A stretch of DNA of 64,000 nucleotides. Source: Bacilli bacterium. GTDB taxonomy: Bacteria > Bacillota_I > Bacilli_A > RFN20 > CAG-826. Each line of letters starts with the position of its first letter. Position 1 is the stretch's first letter. The notes under the pieces are model-generated. The model ran no database searches. It was not told where the DNA came from and saw nothing but the letters and a program-made list of their open reading frames with translations. Made by a program: the position numbers and the translations under genes. Positions 5,251 to 36,948 of this stretch are shown piece by piece. The DNA lies in assembly GCA_017447165.1 (NCBI GenBank), contig JAFSOD010000001.1, positions 1 through 64,000 of the forward strand, given 5' to 3'.

Positions 5251-5529
5251 AAATACAAAAATGGCTCTTGCGAAAAGCAAAAGCCTAGAGGAATTTAAAA
5301 AATATGGATTGAACTATTTTTCTGGAGCAGTATATGGGACGTAACTTACGGCAGTCGTACCTAAATCAATATATGTTTTCTTGTTTTCTTAAGGGTGTTA
5401 CCCGCCCTAGTAAAAATGATAAACCTAGAGCGGGATTTTCGTTAAGCAGGGAAAATTTAGAAAACCTGCCGTTTATGAATTATTTGTATTAGATGTTGTA
5501 GTGGTAGTGTTTGAAGACGTCCATAACTA

Positions 5530-5778
5530 ATGTATTTAAAAATAGGGGAAATAACGAATCAAGATATTGGACAAATGCAGATGTATGTCAATTACTATGA
5601 TCGTTTTGTGAAATCTGATGAAAAGAATAAAATTATTGGCATTTTACTATGTAAAGAAAAAGATGATGCGTTTGTAAGATTAACATTACCAGAAGATAAT
5701 AATCAGATATTTGCCGCTAAATATGAGACCATCCTTCCAACCAAAGAAGAGTTGATACAATTATTAATGGACAAATAA
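5530..5778 (+). pseudogene. YhcG/DUF1016 nuclease, C-terminal fragment
   Basis: The 82 residues read KIGEITNQDIGQMQMYVNYY, then IIGILLCKEKDDAFVRLTLP and NNQIFAAKYETILPTKEEL. This is the conserved C-terminal part of the DUF1016 (YhcG) PD-(D/E)XK nuclease domain, whose full proteins are about 340-380 residues. The N-terminal domain and the first nuclease residues are missing upstream, where only non-coding hairpins are found. The ATG is simply the first in frame. The fragment cannot be active. A separate remnant that looks like the N-terminal half of the same family lies at 12535-12810. Confidence 0.8.
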
Positions 5779-5850
5779 AAAGACAGCGACTCGAAACCTC
5801 ATTCGCCCCTAGCTGTCATTCTATTATTACTTTATTACAACTCGAGTTGA

Positions 5851-6570
5851 CTAGCAATAATGTTCAGCAGTCGCAATAGCGAGCTCAATCATTCTGCCAA
5901 GACCAAACGCTCTTTCTTCAGCGGTTAGCTTTTTATCATGATTGATAAAGCTATCGGTGACTGTTAATAAGCATAATGCTTTTTTGCCAAATCTTGCCGC
6001 ATTCGCGTATAAGGCATAAGATTCCATCTCCACACCCATCACGCCTAAAGCCGCCCATCTTTTCCAGACTTCTTGATCATAGTCATAGAAGACATCCGCA
6101 GAGAAGATATTACCGCCATGATAAGGAATCTTTGATTTCTTAGCTTCTTCATAAGCAGTTAACATTAAGTCAAAGTCAGCAACCGCGGAATAAACACCGT
6201 TTAATTTGAATTGGCTCATCCAATTACTATCAGTGCATGCGCCTGAGCAGATAAGGACATCTTTTAATTCAATATTAGGTTGATAGGTACCACAGGTACC
6301 AACTCTAATAATAATTTCCACTCCGTAGCTCATATATAATTCAGAGGAATAAATACCAATTGATGGCATTCCCATTCCTGAGGCCATAACGGAAATCTTT
6401 TTATTGTTCTTTGTTAGTCCGGTATACCCTAAGATACCTCTAACATTAGTGACTTCTTTATAATCGTGTAAATAGGTTTCGGCGATCCATTTCGCTCTAA
6501 TTGGATCTCCAGGCATTAAAACAACCTTAGCAAAATCGCCTTTTTCAGCATTGATATGAGGTGTTCCCAT
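5851..6570 (-). CDS. deoD: Purine nucleoside phosphorylase DeoD
   Basis: The 239-residue protein is a typical hexameric DeoD-type phosphorylase that splits purine (deoxy)ribonucleosides with phosphate to base and (deoxy)ribose-1-phosphate in salvage. Signature segments are GTPHIN, MPGDPIRAKWIAE, RVGTCGTYQ, GVEMESYALYANA and LTVTDSF. The start is the ATG at 6570 (MGTPHIN), 7 bases after AAGGAGAT; an ATG 8 codons upstream lacks a ribosome site. It stands alone, divergent from the gene at 6673. Its 3' end faces the mobile region. Confidence 0.95.
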   Translation of the reverse strand: MGTPHINAEKGDFAKVVLMPGDPIRAKWIAETYLHDYKEVTNVRGILGYTGLTKNNKKISVMASGMGMPSIGIYSSELYMSYGVEIIIRVGTCGTYQPNIELKDVLICSGACTDSNWMSQFKLNGVYSAVADFDLMLTAYEEAKKSKIPYHGGNIFSADVFYDYDQEVWKRWAALGVMGVEMESYALYANAARFGKKALCLLTVTDSFINHDKKLTAEERAFGLGRMIELAIATAEHYC

Positions 6571-6672
6571 TTTGTATCTCCTTATTAAGCACATCTATTT
6601 TACTACAATAACTAGTTATCACCAAATTATTTCGATATTGAAGTTTAAAGTGATAATCAGTAAACTGATTTT

Positions 6673-7080
6673 ATGAAAAAAGTTAGAAATGTCTATGTTT
6701 TAGAAACTTGCGATTTAAAAATCCTGGAAACAGTGTCTTTATTAAATAAAGATAGTTATTATCCTTTACCTGAAGGTGTTTATAAGATTCTTTCAGGGGT
6801 GGATGATGAAGAAACTGAGAAGTTTTCTGAACTTCCTACATATAAGACATTAATTTCTTATAACTCTAAAAAAGTGTCTCGATTAATCGTGATGCTTATT
6901 AGATATCACTATTTAGAAAGAGTCTATGATAAAGCTAGTGATAAACTCTATTTAAAAGTTGCTCCTAAAGGGGAGACTGAACTAGTAAAATATCACAAAA
7001 AACACAAGTATAAATTCACAAAAAAAGAGGTTAATTTGGAACCTACAATTGTGAAACTTGATTTAAGTAAAATTAAGTAA
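6673..7080 (+). CDS. Winged-helix protein of the RQC-minor type
   Basis: The 135-residue protein contains a segment (LPEGVYKILSGVDDEET, then TYKTLISYNSKKVSRLIVML, IRYHYLERVYD, KLYLKVAPKGE) that fits the small stand-alone RQC-like winged-helix proteins called RQC-minor-1, seen in Erysipelotrichia and related Bacilli. These are predicted to bind DNA or RNA; no exact function is known to me. The C-terminus is lysine-rich. It has its own promoter region between it and deoD and precedes cdaA by about 60 bases, with a separate ribosome site there. Confidence 0.55.
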   Translation: MKKVRNVYVLETCDLKILETVSLLNKDSYYPLPEGVYKILSGVDDEETEKFSELPTYKTLISYNSKKVSRLIVMLIRYHYLERVYDKASDKLYLKVAPKGETELVKYHKKHKYKFTKKEVNLEPTIVKLDLSKIK

Positions 7081-7141
7081 TAAATTGATAGTCACTTTAA
7101 ATAATTATAAAATTATTAAGTTGACTATAGGAGGATAGAAT

Positions 7142-7918
7142 ATGTTATTTGCTTGGGATACGATGCACATCGCACAATTTATAATTTCACTTTTGGTGAT
7201 TATCGGATTATATGGATTCCTATTTTTGATGTATAGCAAGATTGTTAAACGCCTTGCTGGATACTTATTCGTTTCTATCTCCTTTGCCGCAACTTTAGTT
7301 TGTTTCCTATTCAACCTCACCTATGTTTTTGTTGCTGTTGTTGGCTTAACCGCTGTGGGCGTTACCATCTCCTTATTCACCAACTTAGGTGATTTAAGAC
7401 AATTTCTTGCCAATCCATTTAAAGGTAGCAGAGTGAAGTCTGGTAAGATGGAAGTCGAAAAGATTTATAACCGTGAGTTATTATATAAAACCATTGAAAA
7501 AGCAGTTATTAACTTATCCAAAACTAGAACTGGTGCAATCATGACTTTTGAAAAGAATACTTCTTTACAAGACGTCATTAAAAATGGTGTTGCAGTGAGA
7601 GCACCTGTCTCTGCTGAATTATTAGTCACAATCTTCTATCCTGGAACTAGACTCCATGATGGTGCGGTTGTTATCCACGGCAATGAAATTGTCGCTGCTA
7701 GTGTTTTCTATACTCCAACTACTAAACCATTCGCTGGTAAATATGGCAGCCGTCATAGAGCCGCTTTAGGTATCTCTGAAATCTCTGATAGCGTTACTGT
7801 TGTTGTTTCTGAAGAAACCGGAAGAATTTCTTTTGCAGTCAACGGACAACTTGATCCAGTCGACCAAGAAAGCTTCTTAAGAGTGTTTGAAAACTATATG
7901 GACGGAGTAACCGAATAA
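7142..7918 (+). CDS. cdaA: Diadenylate cyclase CdaA
   Basis: A 258-residue membrane-bound c-di-AMP synthase (2 ATP to c-di-AMP). Three hydrophobic segments (about 10-30, 36-56, 60-80) are followed by the DisA_N/DAC domain with TGAIMTFEKNT, the DGA motif at 173-175 and the RHR motif at 204-206 (GSRHRAALG). AGGAGG lies 6 bases before the ATG. Usual CdaA is about 270 residues, so it is full length. The customary partner genes cdaR and glmM are not next to it. It is followed after 11 bases by a Nudix gene, probably co-transcribed. Confidence 0.93.
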   Translation: MLFAWDTMHIAQFIISLLVIIGLYGFLFLMYSKIVKRLAGYLFVSISFAATLVCFLFNLTYVFVAVVGLTAVGVTISLFTNLGDLRQFLANPFKGSRVKSGKMEVEKIYNRELLYKTIEKAVINLSKTRTGAIMTFEKNTSLQDVIKNGVAVRAPVSAELLVTIFYPGTRLHDGAVVIHGNEIVAASVFYTPTTKPFAGKYGSRHRAALGISEISDSVTVVVSEETGRISFAVNGQLDPVDQESFLRVFENYMDGVTE

Positions 7919-30617: not shown

Positions 30618-32556
<1,939 letters not shown>

Positions 32557-32713: not shown

Positions 32714-33010
32714 ATGAACCGAAAAAAGAAAGAAAATAAAATCCAAAATATCGCAAAAATCTATCTTCACACTCTATCATTCTCTAGTGGCGAGATTTAT
32801 TCCCTTCAATCTCAGACTCTTTACTCATTCCTTTCTGCAGTAGAACTTGCCTATTCGTCCTTAAGCGCCCCTCTACAAAAGATAATCAATAATGACTTCT
32901 TCTATCAGGATTATCCAGGGTGGTGGAAGCTTCTATATAAAAAGAGTAGTTATCAAAGATTAAAGAATCAGGCTATTGATCAGTTCCTGGAGGTGTTTTA
33001 TGAAATTTAA
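32714..33010 (+). CDS. Small sigma-like protein heading the pilus operon (MG284/MPN403-like)
   Basis: The 98-residue basic protein has NRKKKENKIQNIAKIYLHTL at its N-terminus and NDFFYQDYPGWWKLLYKKSS, then YQRLKNQAIDQFLEVF at its end. That end pattern (ND---...WW---Y-K--Y-RLK--A---FL) is like the small MG284/MPN403-type proteins of Mollicutes and relatives, which resemble sigma region 4 (my recollection, not checked). The start ATG at 32714 follows GAGGGGCG; an earlier frame start has no ribosome site. It overlaps the next gene by 11 bases. I infer that it may regulate the pilus operon it opens. Confidence 0.5.
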   Translation: MNRKKKENKIQNIAKIYLHTLSFSSGEIYSLQSQTLYSFLSAVELAYSSLSAPLQKIINNDFFYQDYPGWWKLLYKKSSYQRLKNQAIDQFLEVFYEI

Positions 33011-33956
33011 AAGAAAACTATTATTCATTTCTTCGCTTCCATTATGTTTAGGAGCAGGTCCAAGCTTTGGAATACCATATACTTTTACTAGTTCAACTGT
33101 GATAACTAAATTAACTGGTAACGAAAACACTTCTATTACTTTAATGTTCGATCCTCTTGTTCCAACTAATTATACAGTTGTTTCTCGATTATATAATCAT
33201 ACGACTAATGCTTTACTTTTTAGTAGCACGATGGAAGAGACAATAGGAAAACCATATACCGTAAATTATCCAACTAGATATAAATTAAATAGTTCGGGAT
33301 TAAGATTCGAATATGAAATCTCTTATATGAGGATTATATCTAAGCTTAGTGGAGTGCTTTATCCATTTGTAGCTAAAACTATTAATGCTCTACAGTATAA
33401 AGATGAAGATTATGTTACAGAAAACGCTTTTATCAAAGTTGAATCCACTAAAGTGGTAACTGGAGAAAAATTTAATTTCGATAACTACAATGAGTATCTA
33501 TCTAAAAACGAAGACAATTCTTTAGATTTTTCTACTGCAAAAATATATTACCTCCACAGTTACGATTTTAACTATTTAAAAGCTGAATATCACATTAAAG
33601 ATTATAAAGATGTTTATCCTAATCTGAAGCACGAAAATGATGAGGTGGTTTTAAACGTGGATTGTGTAAAAAATGGTACGGAAATCTCTTTTGTGATAAA
33701 TGAAGATTTGTATGTTAAACCAGATTCGTTAGAAATGTCATCAAGTAAACTGTCAGGATATATTAAAACGGATAAGCTATTCGTGCCTATAAATAAGCAG
33801 AAATTATTAGAGGAAAATGACTCTTATATTTTGATTAAAGAAGCTGGTTATTCCTGCATCGATATTAAGCTTCCTTTTACTTATTTTTTCAACAAGAAAA
33901 TTGTTGGGCTTTGTTATAACTCTGACTACTGTATTTCAGGAGGAATTAGAGAATGA
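33000..33956 (+). CDS. Secreted protein of the pilus locus
   Basis: The 318-residue protein begins with a signal peptide (KFKRKLLFISSLPLCLGAGP) and is otherwise a beta-rich, extracytoplasmic-looking protein (FTSSTVITKLTGNENTSITL, then LYPFVAKTINALQ, YLHSYDFNYLKAEYHIKDYK). The start ATG at 33000 lies 6 bases after GGAGGT. No family is recognised. It overlaps the upstream gene by 11 bases and the next by 4, so it is firmly inside the pilus operon and could be a surface component, a minor tip protein or a wall-spanning adaptor. Confidence 0.6.
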   Translation: MKFKRKLLFISSLPLCLGAGPSFGIPYTFTSSTVITKLTGNENTSITLMFDPLVPTNYTVVSRLYNHTTNALLFSSTMEETIGKPYTVNYPTRYKLNSSGLRFEYEISYMRIISKLSGVLYPFVAKTINALQYKDEDYVTENAFIKVESTKVVTGEKFNFDNYNEYLSKNEDNSLDFSTAKIYYLHSYDFNYLKAEYHIKDYKDVYPNLKHENDEVVLNVDCVKNGTEISFVINEDLYVKPDSLEMSSSKLSGYIKTDKLFVPINKQKLLEENDSYILIKEAGYSCIDIKLPFTYFFNKKIVGLCYNSDYCISGGIRE

Positions 33957-34336
33957 TTATTATGTTAATTTCTCCGTTAATTGGGCTAGTTTCGCTGCAA
34001 TATTTCGCTTTAAATTACTCAATTCAGGGTTTGAATAGAGCTATATTATATACCCCGATTGAGATTATGTATAAAGGGGTAGTGTCTCTAGGAGATAAAC
34101 CTAGAATTTCTAGAGATGATTTTGAGTATATTGTCATGTCTTATTATGACCATATAATTCCAAGGTATTCTAAGAATTATTCTATAGACTTTTATTATTA
34201 CAATCTAGAAGATCAATCAATGTGTTTAACAGATAACTGTGAAGGAGTGGAGATTACTATTAATTGTAAGTTAAATATAACATATGATTATCATCGCGTT
34301 ATGTACTATGAATTAAAGGAGAGTAACAATGGATAA
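33953..34336 (+). CDS. Pseudopilin-like membrane protein, TadE/F type
   Basis: The 127-residue protein has a single hydrophobic N-terminal helix (LISPLIGLVSLQYFALNYSI) then a soluble domain with two Cys residues near the end (MCLTDNCEG). This layout, short N-terminal helix plus small beta domain, fits TadE/TadF-type minor pilins. It overlaps the secreted gene by 4 bases and the ATPase gene by 8. The assignment rests on layout and neighbours, not on a clear motif. Confidence 0.5.
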   Translation: MIIMLISPLIGLVSLQYFALNYSIQGLNRAILYTPIEIMYKGVVSLGDKPRISRDDFEYIVMSYYDHIIPRYSKNYSIDFYYYNLEDQSMCLTDNCEGVEITINCKLNITYDYHRVMYYELKESNNG

Positions 34337-35261
34337 AGCTAAGGCAATTTATTATATTGAAAACTCTTTTCTAGCATCTTTATTTAAAGATAGTGAAGTC
34401 ACTGATATCTCATATAACGGAGAAAGCATCTTTTATGTATCAAACACTTTAGGAAGAAAGAAAAGCAACATCGTTGTTGAACAGCAAGCGGTCAGGGATT
34501 TTTTAAGACAAATATCTAATCTTAGCGAACAACAATTTTCATATACCACTCCTAATTTAGATATTTCGATTGGTAAATATCGTATCAACGCCACTCATCA
34601 GTCTGTGGGAAAAATTGATAATGAAGATGTTGTTACATTTTCTATTAGAATTGCTTCTACTAAGCCGCGTATAACTAAGGACAGCGATTTCTTTACTCCT
34701 TTATTAGTTGAGCTCATTGATGTGATATCTAAAAGCGAGAAATCAATTATTATTGGAGGAGTGACTAGTTCAGGAAAAACTGAATTCCAAAAATATATCA
34801 TCCGTAATTTTGATGAAAATGTTCGAGTGATAGTTATTGATAATGTTTTAGAGTTAGACGCTGTCAGAAATGAATCTAATATCGATTTAACTTGTTGGAA
34901 GGTTGATGAAAGAAATCCATATACTAGTAGCAGCCTATTAATTAAAAATGCTTTAAGAAACAATCCAGACTGGCTAATTTTAGCAGAGGCCAGAGATAAA
35001 GAAATGGTGGATGTTCTTAATTCTGCCATGACTGGGATGCCAATTATCACGACAATCCATGCTTTTGATGTGTATTCCCTCCCCTACCGTATGGGAAGAA
35101 TGGTTTTAAGAGGTGATCAAAAACTAGATTATGATGAAACGCTTAAAGATATTTATTACCATTTCCATTTTTATTTCTATTTAAATAAGAAATCAGTTAA
35201 AGGGAAGATTGTTAGATATTTGGATTATCTTATCAAAAGGAAATACTGTTCCTTATTTTGA
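34329..35261 (+). CDS. TadA/CpaF-like secretion ATPase
   Basis: The 310-residue protein is a VirB11/CpaF-type secretion NTPase: Walker A GGVTSSGKT (143-151), an Asp/Glu-rich DNVLELDA box, Walker B region DWLILAEARD (214-223) and the His box TTIHAF (241-246). The N-terminal domain (1-110) is short. It would drive assembly of the Flp/Tad-like pilus. It overlaps both neighbours, so expression is coupled. TadA proteins are often 400-470 residues; this one is compact but has all nucleotide motifs. Confidence 0.88.
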   Translation: MDKAKAIYYIENSFLASLFKDSEVTDISYNGESIFYVSNTLGRKKSNIVVEQQAVRDFLRQISNLSEQQFSYTTPNLDISIGKYRINATHQSVGKIDNEDVVTFSIRIASTKPRITKDSDFFTPLLVELIDVISKSEKSIIIGGVTSSGKTEFQKYIIRNFDENVRVIVIDNVLELDAVRNESNIDLTCWKVDERNPYTSSSLLIKNALRNNPDWLILAEARDKEMVDVLNSAMTGMPIITTIHAFDVYSLPYRMGRMVLRGDQKLDYDETLKDIYYHFHFYFYLNKKSVKGKIVRYLDYLIKRKYCSLF

Positions 35262-35857
35262 TTATTGTTTTAGTTATCGCTTTAGCGCTAGGGTCATATA
35301 TTTTCTTAAAACAAATTTATATTCCGATTTTTGTTGGGATAGGTGGTTTATTACTTATTTATTTCTACTTATCTAGATATTCCTCTATGGAAAAGAAAAA
35401 CGAAAAAGACCATGTTGATCAACTTATTTCATTACTATCTTATTTTGAAATTTTTATCTCTAATGGAAATAACGTTTATACATCTTTTAAGATGTTACTT
35501 CCTTATGCAGAACTATTTGTTCAAGATGCGATCAACTCTATGCTGATGCAAATTGATGTTGATAAGACTATTGGCCCATATATTAATTTTGCTAGTAAAT
35601 TCAATAATCGCACCATTGAGTCGCTAATGTTGTCTATTTACCAAATGGTGGATAACGGAGAAAACGCGATTGAATTAAGTGAATTTAATTTACTTTTTAA
35701 CAATATCAAGGAAAAGCATTTTGATGAGTTGATTGATTCTCATAAGAAGGGTTTAGACATTTTTAATTCTTTCCCTTTGATTGGAGCAGGAGCAATTACT
35801 ATCGTTTTATCCATCAGTATTGTTTCGATTATAGGAGATTACATCAATGTCATATAA
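35258..35857 (+). CDS. TadB/TadC-like membrane platform protein
   Basis: The 199-residue protein has two hydrophobic segments at the N-terminus (about 1-38), a cytoplasmic helical part (HVDQLISLLSYFEIFISNGN, then TIGPYINFASKFNNRTIESL) and a C-terminal membrane segment (about 172-196). This matches a short T2SSF/TadB-TadC platform. Usual Tad loci encode two such proteins of ~300 residues; here there is one small one. The start is probably the TTG at 35258 that overlaps the ATPase stop. Confidence 0.65.
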   Translation: MIIVLVIALALGSYIFLKQIYIPIFVGIGGLLLIYFYLSRYSSMEKKNEKDHVDQLISLLSYFEIFISNGNNVYTSFKMLLPYAELFVQDAINSMLMQIDVDKTIGPYINFASKFNNRTIESLMLSIYQMVDNGENAIELSEFNLLFNNIKEKHFDELIDSHKKGLDIFNSFPLIGAGAITIVLSISIVSIIGDYINVI

Positions 35858-36188
35858 GTTAGGTCTAATATTATCTATGGTCTTTGTCGTGTTATTCCTT
35901 CTTTTAGGAGGAGATATGATGTGTTTATCTGCTGCGTATAGTTATTTAGATTCTCACTCTATTTCTATTGGCTATTTAATCGCTAAATCAGGAAGAGTGG
36001 ATTCAGAATACATCTCATATTTAGAAGATGTTTACAAGGTAAATTTCGAAACGATTTCTCCAACTGAACCAGTTATTGGTGATGTTGTGGAATATACCAT
36101 TTATCGCTATTATCATCCGCTTATAATGGCGAGTCACGACGTTAAGATTACCGCATCAAGAACCACCGTGATTGGATATTACGGATAG
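35847..36188 (+). CDS. Second pseudopilin-like protein, TadE type
   Basis: The 113-residue protein has one N-terminal hydrophobic helix (LGLILSMVFVVLFLLLGGDM) followed by a small soluble domain (SISIGYLIAKSGRVDSEYIS, then VIGDVVEYTIYRYYHPLIMA). Size and layout match TadE-like minor pilins. It overlaps the platform gene by 11 bases and precedes the pilin gene by 15. Confidence 0.55.
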   Translation: MSYKLGLILSMVFVVLFLLLGGDMMCLSAAYSYLDSHSISIGYLIAKSGRVDSEYISYLEDVYKVNFETISPTEPVIGDVVEYTIYRYYHPLIMASHDVKITASRTTVIGYYG

Positions 36189-36203
36189 AAAGGAGAATTA
36201 GCT

Positions 36204-36425
36204 ATGTCTGAAATTAAAGGACAATTACTTGGTATCATTCTTACCTTAATGGTGTTCGCTGCTGTTTCTGTAACTATTGCTACTGTTTATAACCAAACTG
36301 CTAGTAAAGTTACTGAACATGCTCAAAACGTTGAACAAGGCGCATCTCAAGAACTTGAATCAGGTAACACAGGTGGGGCCATTGCCGCTCCAGGAAGTGT
36401 CGCTTATCCAGCGATTCACTATTAA
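36204..36425 (+). CDS. Flp-like major pilin candidate
   Basis: The 73-residue protein has a charged start, EIKGQLLGIILTLMVFAAVS, then a polar tail (TEHAQNVEQGASQELESGNT). A short basic leader ending in Gly before a hydrophobic helix is the layout of Flp pilins processed by a prepilin peptidase. The usual Glu at mature position 5 is not evident. AAAGGAGAA lies 7 bases before the ATG. Being last, smallest and strongly preceded by a ribosome site suggests the major subunit. No prepilin peptidase is in the window. Confidence 0.6.
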   Translation: MSEIKGQLLGIILTLMVFAAVSVTIATVYNQTASKVTEHAQNVEQGASQELESGNTGGAIAAPGSVAYPAIHY

Positions 36426-36498
36426 TTTAGAAAGAAGAGAGGATTACCTCTTTTCTTTTAGATTATATTGTATAAAATATTGATACGGAGGCTTATTT

Positions 36499-36723
36499 AT
36501 GGACACCAGAAAAGTAGTATCAGATATATTAGCGAAAAGAATTGATATCTCTAATTTAAAAGAAGAAGATTCTTTAAAGAATATTGGTTTAGATTCTCTT
36601 GATTTAGTGGAAGTGATGCTTGAGATTGAAGACACCCTCGGTATCGAATTCGATTCTGAAGAAATTGCAGAATTAACCACTCTTAAAAGTGTTTTGGATT
36701 TAATTAATTCAAAAATTAAATAA
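36499..36723 (+). CDS. acpP: Acyl carrier protein
   Basis: The 74-residue acidic protein has the phosphopantetheine site IGLDSLDLVEVML with its Ser, followed by IEDTLGIEFDSEEIAELTTL. It carries acyl chains in fatty acid or lipid synthesis. CGGAGG precedes the ATG. It is a standalone copy between the pilus operon and tRNA genes; fatty acid synthase genes are not near, so it could be a second, specialised carrier. Confidence 0.9.
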   Translation: MDTRKVVSDILAKRIDISNLKEEDSLKNIGLDSLDLVEVMLEIEDTLGIEFDSEEIAELTTLKSVLDLINSKIK

Positions 36724-36790: not shown

Positions 36791-36866
36791 GCCTACCTAG
36801 CTCAGTCGGTAGAGCTATCGGCTGTTAACCGATCGGTCGTGGGTTCGAGTCCCTCGGTAGGCGCCA
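36791..36866 (+). tRNA. tRNA-Asn (GTT)
   Basis: Acceptor GCCTACC/GGTAGGC, discriminator G, encoded CCA. The anticodon stem ATCGG/CCGAT encloses CTGTTAA, giving anticodon GTT. The T-loop is TTCGAGT. Confidence 0.95.
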
Positions 36867-36871
36867 CACTT

Positions 36872-36948
36872 GGCCTGTTGGAGAAGCGGCTTAACTCACC
36901 ACCCTTTCACGGTGGCATTCATGGGTTCGAATCCCATACAGGTCACCA
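36872..36948 (+). tRNA. tRNA-Glu (TTC)
   Basis: Acceptor GGCCTGT/ACAGGTC, discriminator A, encoded CCA. The anticodon stem CCACC/GGTGG encloses CTTTCAC, giving anticodon TTC. The T-loop is TTCGAAT. It lies 5 bases after tRNA-Asn. Confidence 0.95.

Follow-up and report, generated by a model that had tools for sequence, protein, structure and literature searches.

A probable Tad-like type IV filament operon of the Bacilli order RFN20 and its 0.9-kb deletion in one genome assembly

Genes of the locus and the missing 0.9 kb

The window analysed here is a stretch of 64,000 nucleotides at the start of a 219-kb contig (JAFSOD010000001.1, positions 1 to 64,000) in the 1.30-Mb genome assembly of a Bacilli bacterium (GCA_017447165.1; order RFN20, family CAG-826). 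It contains an operon of seven genes, P1 to P7, which we consider likely to encode a Tad-like type IV filament. When intact, as it is across the order, the operon numbers eight genes; here it has undergone a 0.9-kb deletion. The seven tightly packed open reading frames (ORFs) described in the initial annotation are all present, with overlaps of 4–11 bp and one 15-bp gap (Table 1). They do not occur by chance, since all seven are under purifying selection (ratio of nonsynonymous to synonymous substitution rates, dN/dS, of 0.05–0.14 against a close relative) and the gene order of the operon is kept in about 80 genomes.

Looking at the related loci, it was clear that the intact operon of this lineage comprises a regulator, a secreted immunoglobulin (Ig)-like protein, a TadE/F-like pilin candidate, an ATPase, two platforms (A and B), a TadF-like pilin candidate and a small pilin candidate. 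In relatives, the P4 ATPase has ~355 aa, platform B (P5) has ~223 aa and an ATG start, and the ~690 bp between them encode an extra membrane protein of 226–260 aa, platform A. This protein was present in 79 of the 79 relatives whose contigs reach that far (34 loci, two of them cut by contig ends, plus 5, 1 and 40, with one genome counted twice). In the window, homology to the ATPase runs to position 35219 and abuts homology to platform B, which resumes at 35220, with at most ~2 nt shared at the junction; ATPase codon ~297 is joined directly to platform B codon ~12. Compared with the related locus L080, ~906 bp are missing, which held the C-terminal part of the ATPase, the whole of platform A and the ~11 initial codons of platform B. 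P4 has lost its last ~57 residues and ends with 13 out-of-frame codons. P5, whose DNA homology to relatives starts at 35220 and whose BLASTP homology starts at residue 25, has lost its true start and its ribosome-binding region, and the TTG at 35258, overlapping the ATPase stop TGA, is an in-frame codon left over after this loss. The single ~200-residue platform, which had first been taken for a feature of the system, is therefore a deletion product and a property of this assembly, not of the lineage system, since every one of the 79 relatives carries two platforms.

We then considered whether the deletion is real. If it were an assembly artefact, the organism would have an ordinary eight-gene locus, as might be expected from a 9-contig assembly of 96% completeness and from the platform A gene of every relative. 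However, no long direct repeat that would make an assembler skip flanks the corresponding site in L080, the junction shares next to no sequence, the contig is long and the missing DNA was found nowhere else in the window genome, on this or any other contig. The lack of such a repeat leads us to favour a real deletion over an assembly error, and we hold an artefact to be unlikely. The intact state of the remaining genes and their low dN/dS fit a recent deletion, and the machine of the window genome is probably inactive. Alternatively, the deletion could be tolerated and this genome could use a functional single-platform minimal pilus: the remaining genes show no further frameshifts and keep their low dN/dS, P5 could be read from the TTG by coupling to the overlapping TGA stop, and some family members have shorter ATPases (315–325 aa). 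The retention of platform A in all relatives, the lack of a start and a ribosome-binding region of its own for P5 and the out-of-frame tail of the ATPase make this quite improbable.

The operon occupies a conserved position. Upstream lie the divergent genes gmk and eno, gmk being the same divergent neighbour in nearly all relatives of family f1, and acpP adjoins the operon downstream in most relatives. Two tRNA genes (36791–36863 and 36872–36945) are found 3' of acpP.

Table 1. Features of the P1–P7 locus in window coordinates. A slash marks the end of the six-residue N-terminal segment.
Feature	Position	Strand	Basis or remark
gmk (guanylate kinase)	32020..32556	-	Divergent flank marking the conserved operon position; ORF listing
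P1, putative DNA-binding regulator of the MG284/MPN403 family	32714..33010	+	NF045770 profile match
P2, secreted all-beta protein, candidate tip adhesin	33000..33956	+	Alignments, structure model
P3, TadE/F-like minor pilin candidate	33953..34336	+	Structure model, weak profile likeness to P6
P4, CpaF/TadA-like extension ATPase, truncated	34329..35261	+	PF00437, CpaF PDB 8rkd
Junction of the deletion (~906 bp lost compared with L080)	35219..35220	.	Comparison with relatives
P5, platform B (TadC-like), 5'-truncated	35220..35857	+	Readable only from TTG 35258 (ORF 35258-35857)
P6, TadF-like minor pilin candidate, N-terminus MSYKLG/LILSM	35847..36188	+	PF16964 TadF, N-terminal composition
P7, small major-pilin candidate, N-terminus MSEIKG/QLLGIILTL	36204..36425	+	Weak TadE and archaeal Pilin_N matches; cassette exchange
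Terminator-like hairpin, 13 pairs (4 G-C)	36430..36459	+	Between pilin gene P7 and acpP
acpP-like acyl carrier protein	36499..36723	+	PF00550, E=6.2e-12

Proteins encoded by the operon

The assignment of P4 to the CpaF-type ATPases was borne out. P4 matched PF00437 (E=2.7e-16) and the TadA family TIGR03819 (1.2e-19, below the curated cut-off), and the best relatives of the P4-family profile in the PDB were FlaI/GspE-type ATPases, CpaF (8rkd) and VirB11, the match to 8rkd extending over positions 15–310 with E=4e-28. In the ATPase tree, where the branch of L226 is very long and the root was placed for drawing only, the classical long CpaF proteins were separated from the short ATPases in a starred group of their own. 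The T2SSF-type nature of the platform also held, since PF00482 was found in 6 of 32 platform B family members (best 2.3e-5). It was found in none of the platform A members searched; platforms A and B are nevertheless homologous to each other (hhalign 97%).

At the head of the operon, the initial annotation had proposed a sigma-like gene with a regulatory role, of which only the role was retained. P1 matched NF045770, the MG284/MPN403 family (E=1.9e-17, 63 bits against a curated cut-off of 37.3), and 18 of the 22 P1-family members matched phrog_248, 'transcriptional activator' (best 3.5e-7). None of the 22 contained a Pfam sigma domain, and one sigma factor in the PDB was hit at E=0.3, so we discarded the sigma factor assignment. 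Judging from its family matches, P1 is likely a DNA-binding regulator resembling phage transcriptional activators.

P2 gave an all-beta AlphaFold2 model (mean predicted local distance difference test score, pLDDT, of 82.7), and its alignment ends in a conserved C-terminal GxCxxSDYCIxGG motif. Only the N-terminal Ig-like sandwich was recognised in the fold search, residues 25–124 matching Ig-like sandwiches with a Z of about 9, as an Ig/fibronectin type III-like domain does. A transglutaminase/factor XIII-type enzyme was rejected, the corresponding matches reflecting the common Ig fold.

The three remaining proteins are pilin candidates. P3, which has two conserved cysteines, was modelled as a 31-residue N-terminal helix followed by an alpha-beta-beta-beta domain (pLDDT 85.3), and its profile is weakly similar to that of P6 (hhalign 63%). 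P6 matched PF16964 (TadF) in 3 of 33 members (best 2.5e-4), and the P7 family gave weak matches to TadE and to archaeal Pilin_N. Both P6 and P7 start with a fixed six-residue segment, mostly ended by Gly or Ala, before the membrane helix. Residue 6 is Gly or Ala in 33/33 P7 members, in which E3, K5 and L9 are also invariant, and Gly, Ala or Ser in 31/33 P6 members. A minimal leader is thus possible, and we did not retain a description of these pilins as 'leaderless'.

The P7 gene also stood out in the DNA comparisons. DNA identity between the window and L080 is ~80–93% over the locus, as against 95–98% inside P7; with L079 and L080 together, identity is 95–100% in P7 and ~80–93% outside it. 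For the stretch 36196–36435, the window is near-identical to L079/L080 within the gene, and the value outside is ~85%. Conversely, L080 and L081 are 82–100% identical around P7 and only 47–67% inside most of it. Species of the genus thus swap the P7 pilin gene as a cassette. Such an exchange, confined to P7, fits what is expected of a surface-exposed component.

Prepilin peptidase, cell wall and distribution

The type IV filaments described so far are held to depend on a dedicated prepilin peptidase (reviewed in PMC10191384 and PMC4471445), Nanoarchaeota being noted as the group without a detected one (PMC4471445). We found no A24 prepilin peptidase (PF01478) at the locus or anywhere else in the window genome, even at E<=10. 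ATPase matches were obtained in 40 sampled relatives, two of which, G042 and G055, gave weak matches to full-size PilB-type ATPases. The peptidase was detected in 0 of the 38 genomes with the ATPase of this small system and was present in both G042 and G055, which are devoid of the system, meaning that the search works at this distance. As no A24 peptidase is encoded, the six-residue segment of the pilin candidates is either kept or removed by an unrelated peptidase. At the locus, the only place searched for it, no operon ORF matched a TadZ/ParA-like family. The absence of both TadZ and peptidase from the locus had been noted initially and is upheld here; the apparent minimality of a lone platform is due to the ~906-bp deletion.

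A penicillin-binding protein transpeptidase (PF00905) was found in none of 19 genus members, the window genome included, and among 35 members of the family in only 2, which makes it probable that the host lineage has no wall. The small system and transpeptidases occur together in families f6 and f8, so that the pilus is not confined to cells without a wall.

With a threshold of E<=1e-12, the ATPase of the system was found in 201 of the 279 genomes of the order, which represent 38 of its 56 genera. An ATPase placed in an unrelated context in relatives would have spoken against the initial reading; within the order its context was strictly conserved, unchanging wherever it could be read, so that this objection does not apply. 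The operon is a small conserved Tad-like machine across an order of gut bacteria that look mostly wall-less. A divergent member (L226, 5255–11020, of genome G207) encodes two additional proteins downstream of P6, of 320 and 195 aa, and P7 was not detected there. The sister families f3 and f4 (L139, L140, L141, L142 and L146) keep a P1-P2-P3-platform-P6 arrangement without ATPase and P7. When their profiles were compared with those of the lineage, hhalign gave 99% for P1, 94% for P2, 96% for P3 and 95% for P6, the platform being weaker (43%).

Proposed function and comparison with known systems

In the intact relatives, by analogy with the Tad family, P7, P6 and P3 would enter the membrane through their N-terminal helix, and P4, working under the paired platforms A and B, would use ATP to lift the pilins into a filament that P3 and P6 may initiate or cap. 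The secreted, Ig-like P2 would be a tip or surface adhesin and P1 would activate the operon. Gene content and order, the homologies, the deletion in the assembly and the lack of an A24 peptidase are direct observations; filament formation, tip role, regulation and the processing state of the pilins are deduced. In the window genome, the loss of platform A together with the damage to the ATPase and platform B would probably abolish assembly.

Several observations weigh against this filament. P7 has no Glu at +5, whereas a Flp class III leader is expected to have Gly-1 and Glu5. The fold search with P3 gave T4 gp25 as its best match (Z 7.2), followed by pantothenate synthetase domains, a pseudopilin (EpsI/EpsJ complex, 2ret) appearing at Z 5.1. 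More generally, the family scores by which P3, P6 and P7 are assigned as pilins are weak, and an assembly error could account for the deletion. The two pseudopilin-like proteins of the initial annotation find some backing in the TadE/TadF-like scores and in the P3 model, which fits a minor pilin, but these scores are weak and the fold search with P3 is indecisive; P7 resembles a Flp pilin by its small size and its Gly or Ala at residue 6, but not by its residue 5, and its TadE and Pilin_N matches are weak.

The same genes could instead build a short pseudopilus acting as a piston, as in a type II secretion system, and not a surface pilus. The secretion of P2, encoded directly after the regulator, would agree with this, and a small pilin and a minimal gene set would fit too. 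On the other hand, a cassette exchange that affects P7 alone is in keeping with a filament exposed at the surface and under selection, and related loci encode a thioester-domain adhesin; we hold a piston to be rather unlikely. A competence pilus for DNA uptake is far less probable still. Monoderm Bacilli do take up DNA via type IV filaments (PMC10191384), but ComEC (PF03772), detected in 10 of 14 control genomes, is absent from the window genome, and two single-domain platforms with a CpaF-type ATPase are unlike ComGA/ComGB.

The most striking 'minimal' feature of the operon proves to be a deletion. What is truly odd is the retention, in this lineage, of such a machine without a detectable prepilin peptidase. 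An order-wide machine in sampled genomes devoid of the A24 peptidase makes it possible to test directly if pilins can do without cleavage, and it places a probable pilus on bacteria seemingly without a peptidoglycan wall. It may also bear on the origin of the conserved mycoplasma operon headed by MG284, with the gene order MG284-MG285-MG286-acpP. In mycoplasma-like genomes that read TGA as tryptophan (L133-L138, L159, L161-L177), we found an MG284-type regulator and proteins of ~380 and ~140–200 aa, mostly then followed by acpP. This is the MG284-MG287 order and a possible relic of the lineage operon. In some f20 genomes (L126, 8345–8985; L148, 8372–9151) an MG284-type gene directly adjoins acpP, an adjacency that suggests an ancestral P1-acpP linkage.

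The mycoplasma MG284/MPN403 operon shares with the lineage the homologous regulator (hhalign 98%) and usually the downstream acyl carrier protein; unlike the lineage, it has neither ATPase nor platform. Aligned by hhalign with P2 and P3, the MG285/MG286-like proteins were in a sensible register and scored above column-shuffled controls. These scores were not distinct from those of 97 decoy families, so that homology was not accepted and a gene-order lead is what is left. A more speculative view, which we find doubtful though worth stating, is that of a widespread filament class, mostly in apparently wall-less Bacilli, that has no peptidase and keeps the six residues, the mycoplasma operon being its last remnant. 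ATPase and platforms would then have been lost, with f3/f4 as the ATPase-less intermediate. Searching the open literature, we found no earlier description of the MG284-286/MPN403-406 operon, of a Tad system in RFN20 or of leaderless pilins.

Outside the order, the closest ATPases belong to Tad-like loci with a short ATPase in other families of Bacilli (f17, f20, f25, f9 and f13; L211-L222), where the ATPase, two platforms and small pilins form the same core. Unlike the lineage, several of them also encode a large secreted protein and one resembling RcpC/CpaB, and the f9 locus L219 encodes its own 122-aa A24 peptidase. In L211-L215 the secreted proteins are of ~1000 aa and accompany the RcpC/CpaB-like protein, and such genomes can also hold a classical Tad locus; L217 encodes a thioester-domain (TED_2) protein of adhesin type (5466–7832).

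Compared with the Tad/Flp pilus (type IVc pilus, T4cP), the system has in common a CpaF-type ATPase, a small pilin candidate and TadE/F-like minor pilin candidates in one operon, as well as, in the relatives, two probably single-domain platforms, of which the window has one, truncated. In contrast, its ATPase is short (~355 aa, where the classical Tad loci of that class have ~450 aa), its pilin candidate has only six residues before the membrane helix and no Glu5, and it has a built-in regulator. Its ATPase and platforms place it in the type IV filament superfamily, and it would work much as a Tad pilus does, yet we do not count it among the canonical Tad systems because TadV, the A24 peptidase, is absent from the whole genome and TadZ is not at the locus. 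The tad locus of Bulleidia extructa (PMC12786226) is likewise a Tad locus in a reduced-genome erysipelotrichial; unlike the operon described here, it has 13 genes, starts with the tadV peptidase gene and contains two pilA genes.

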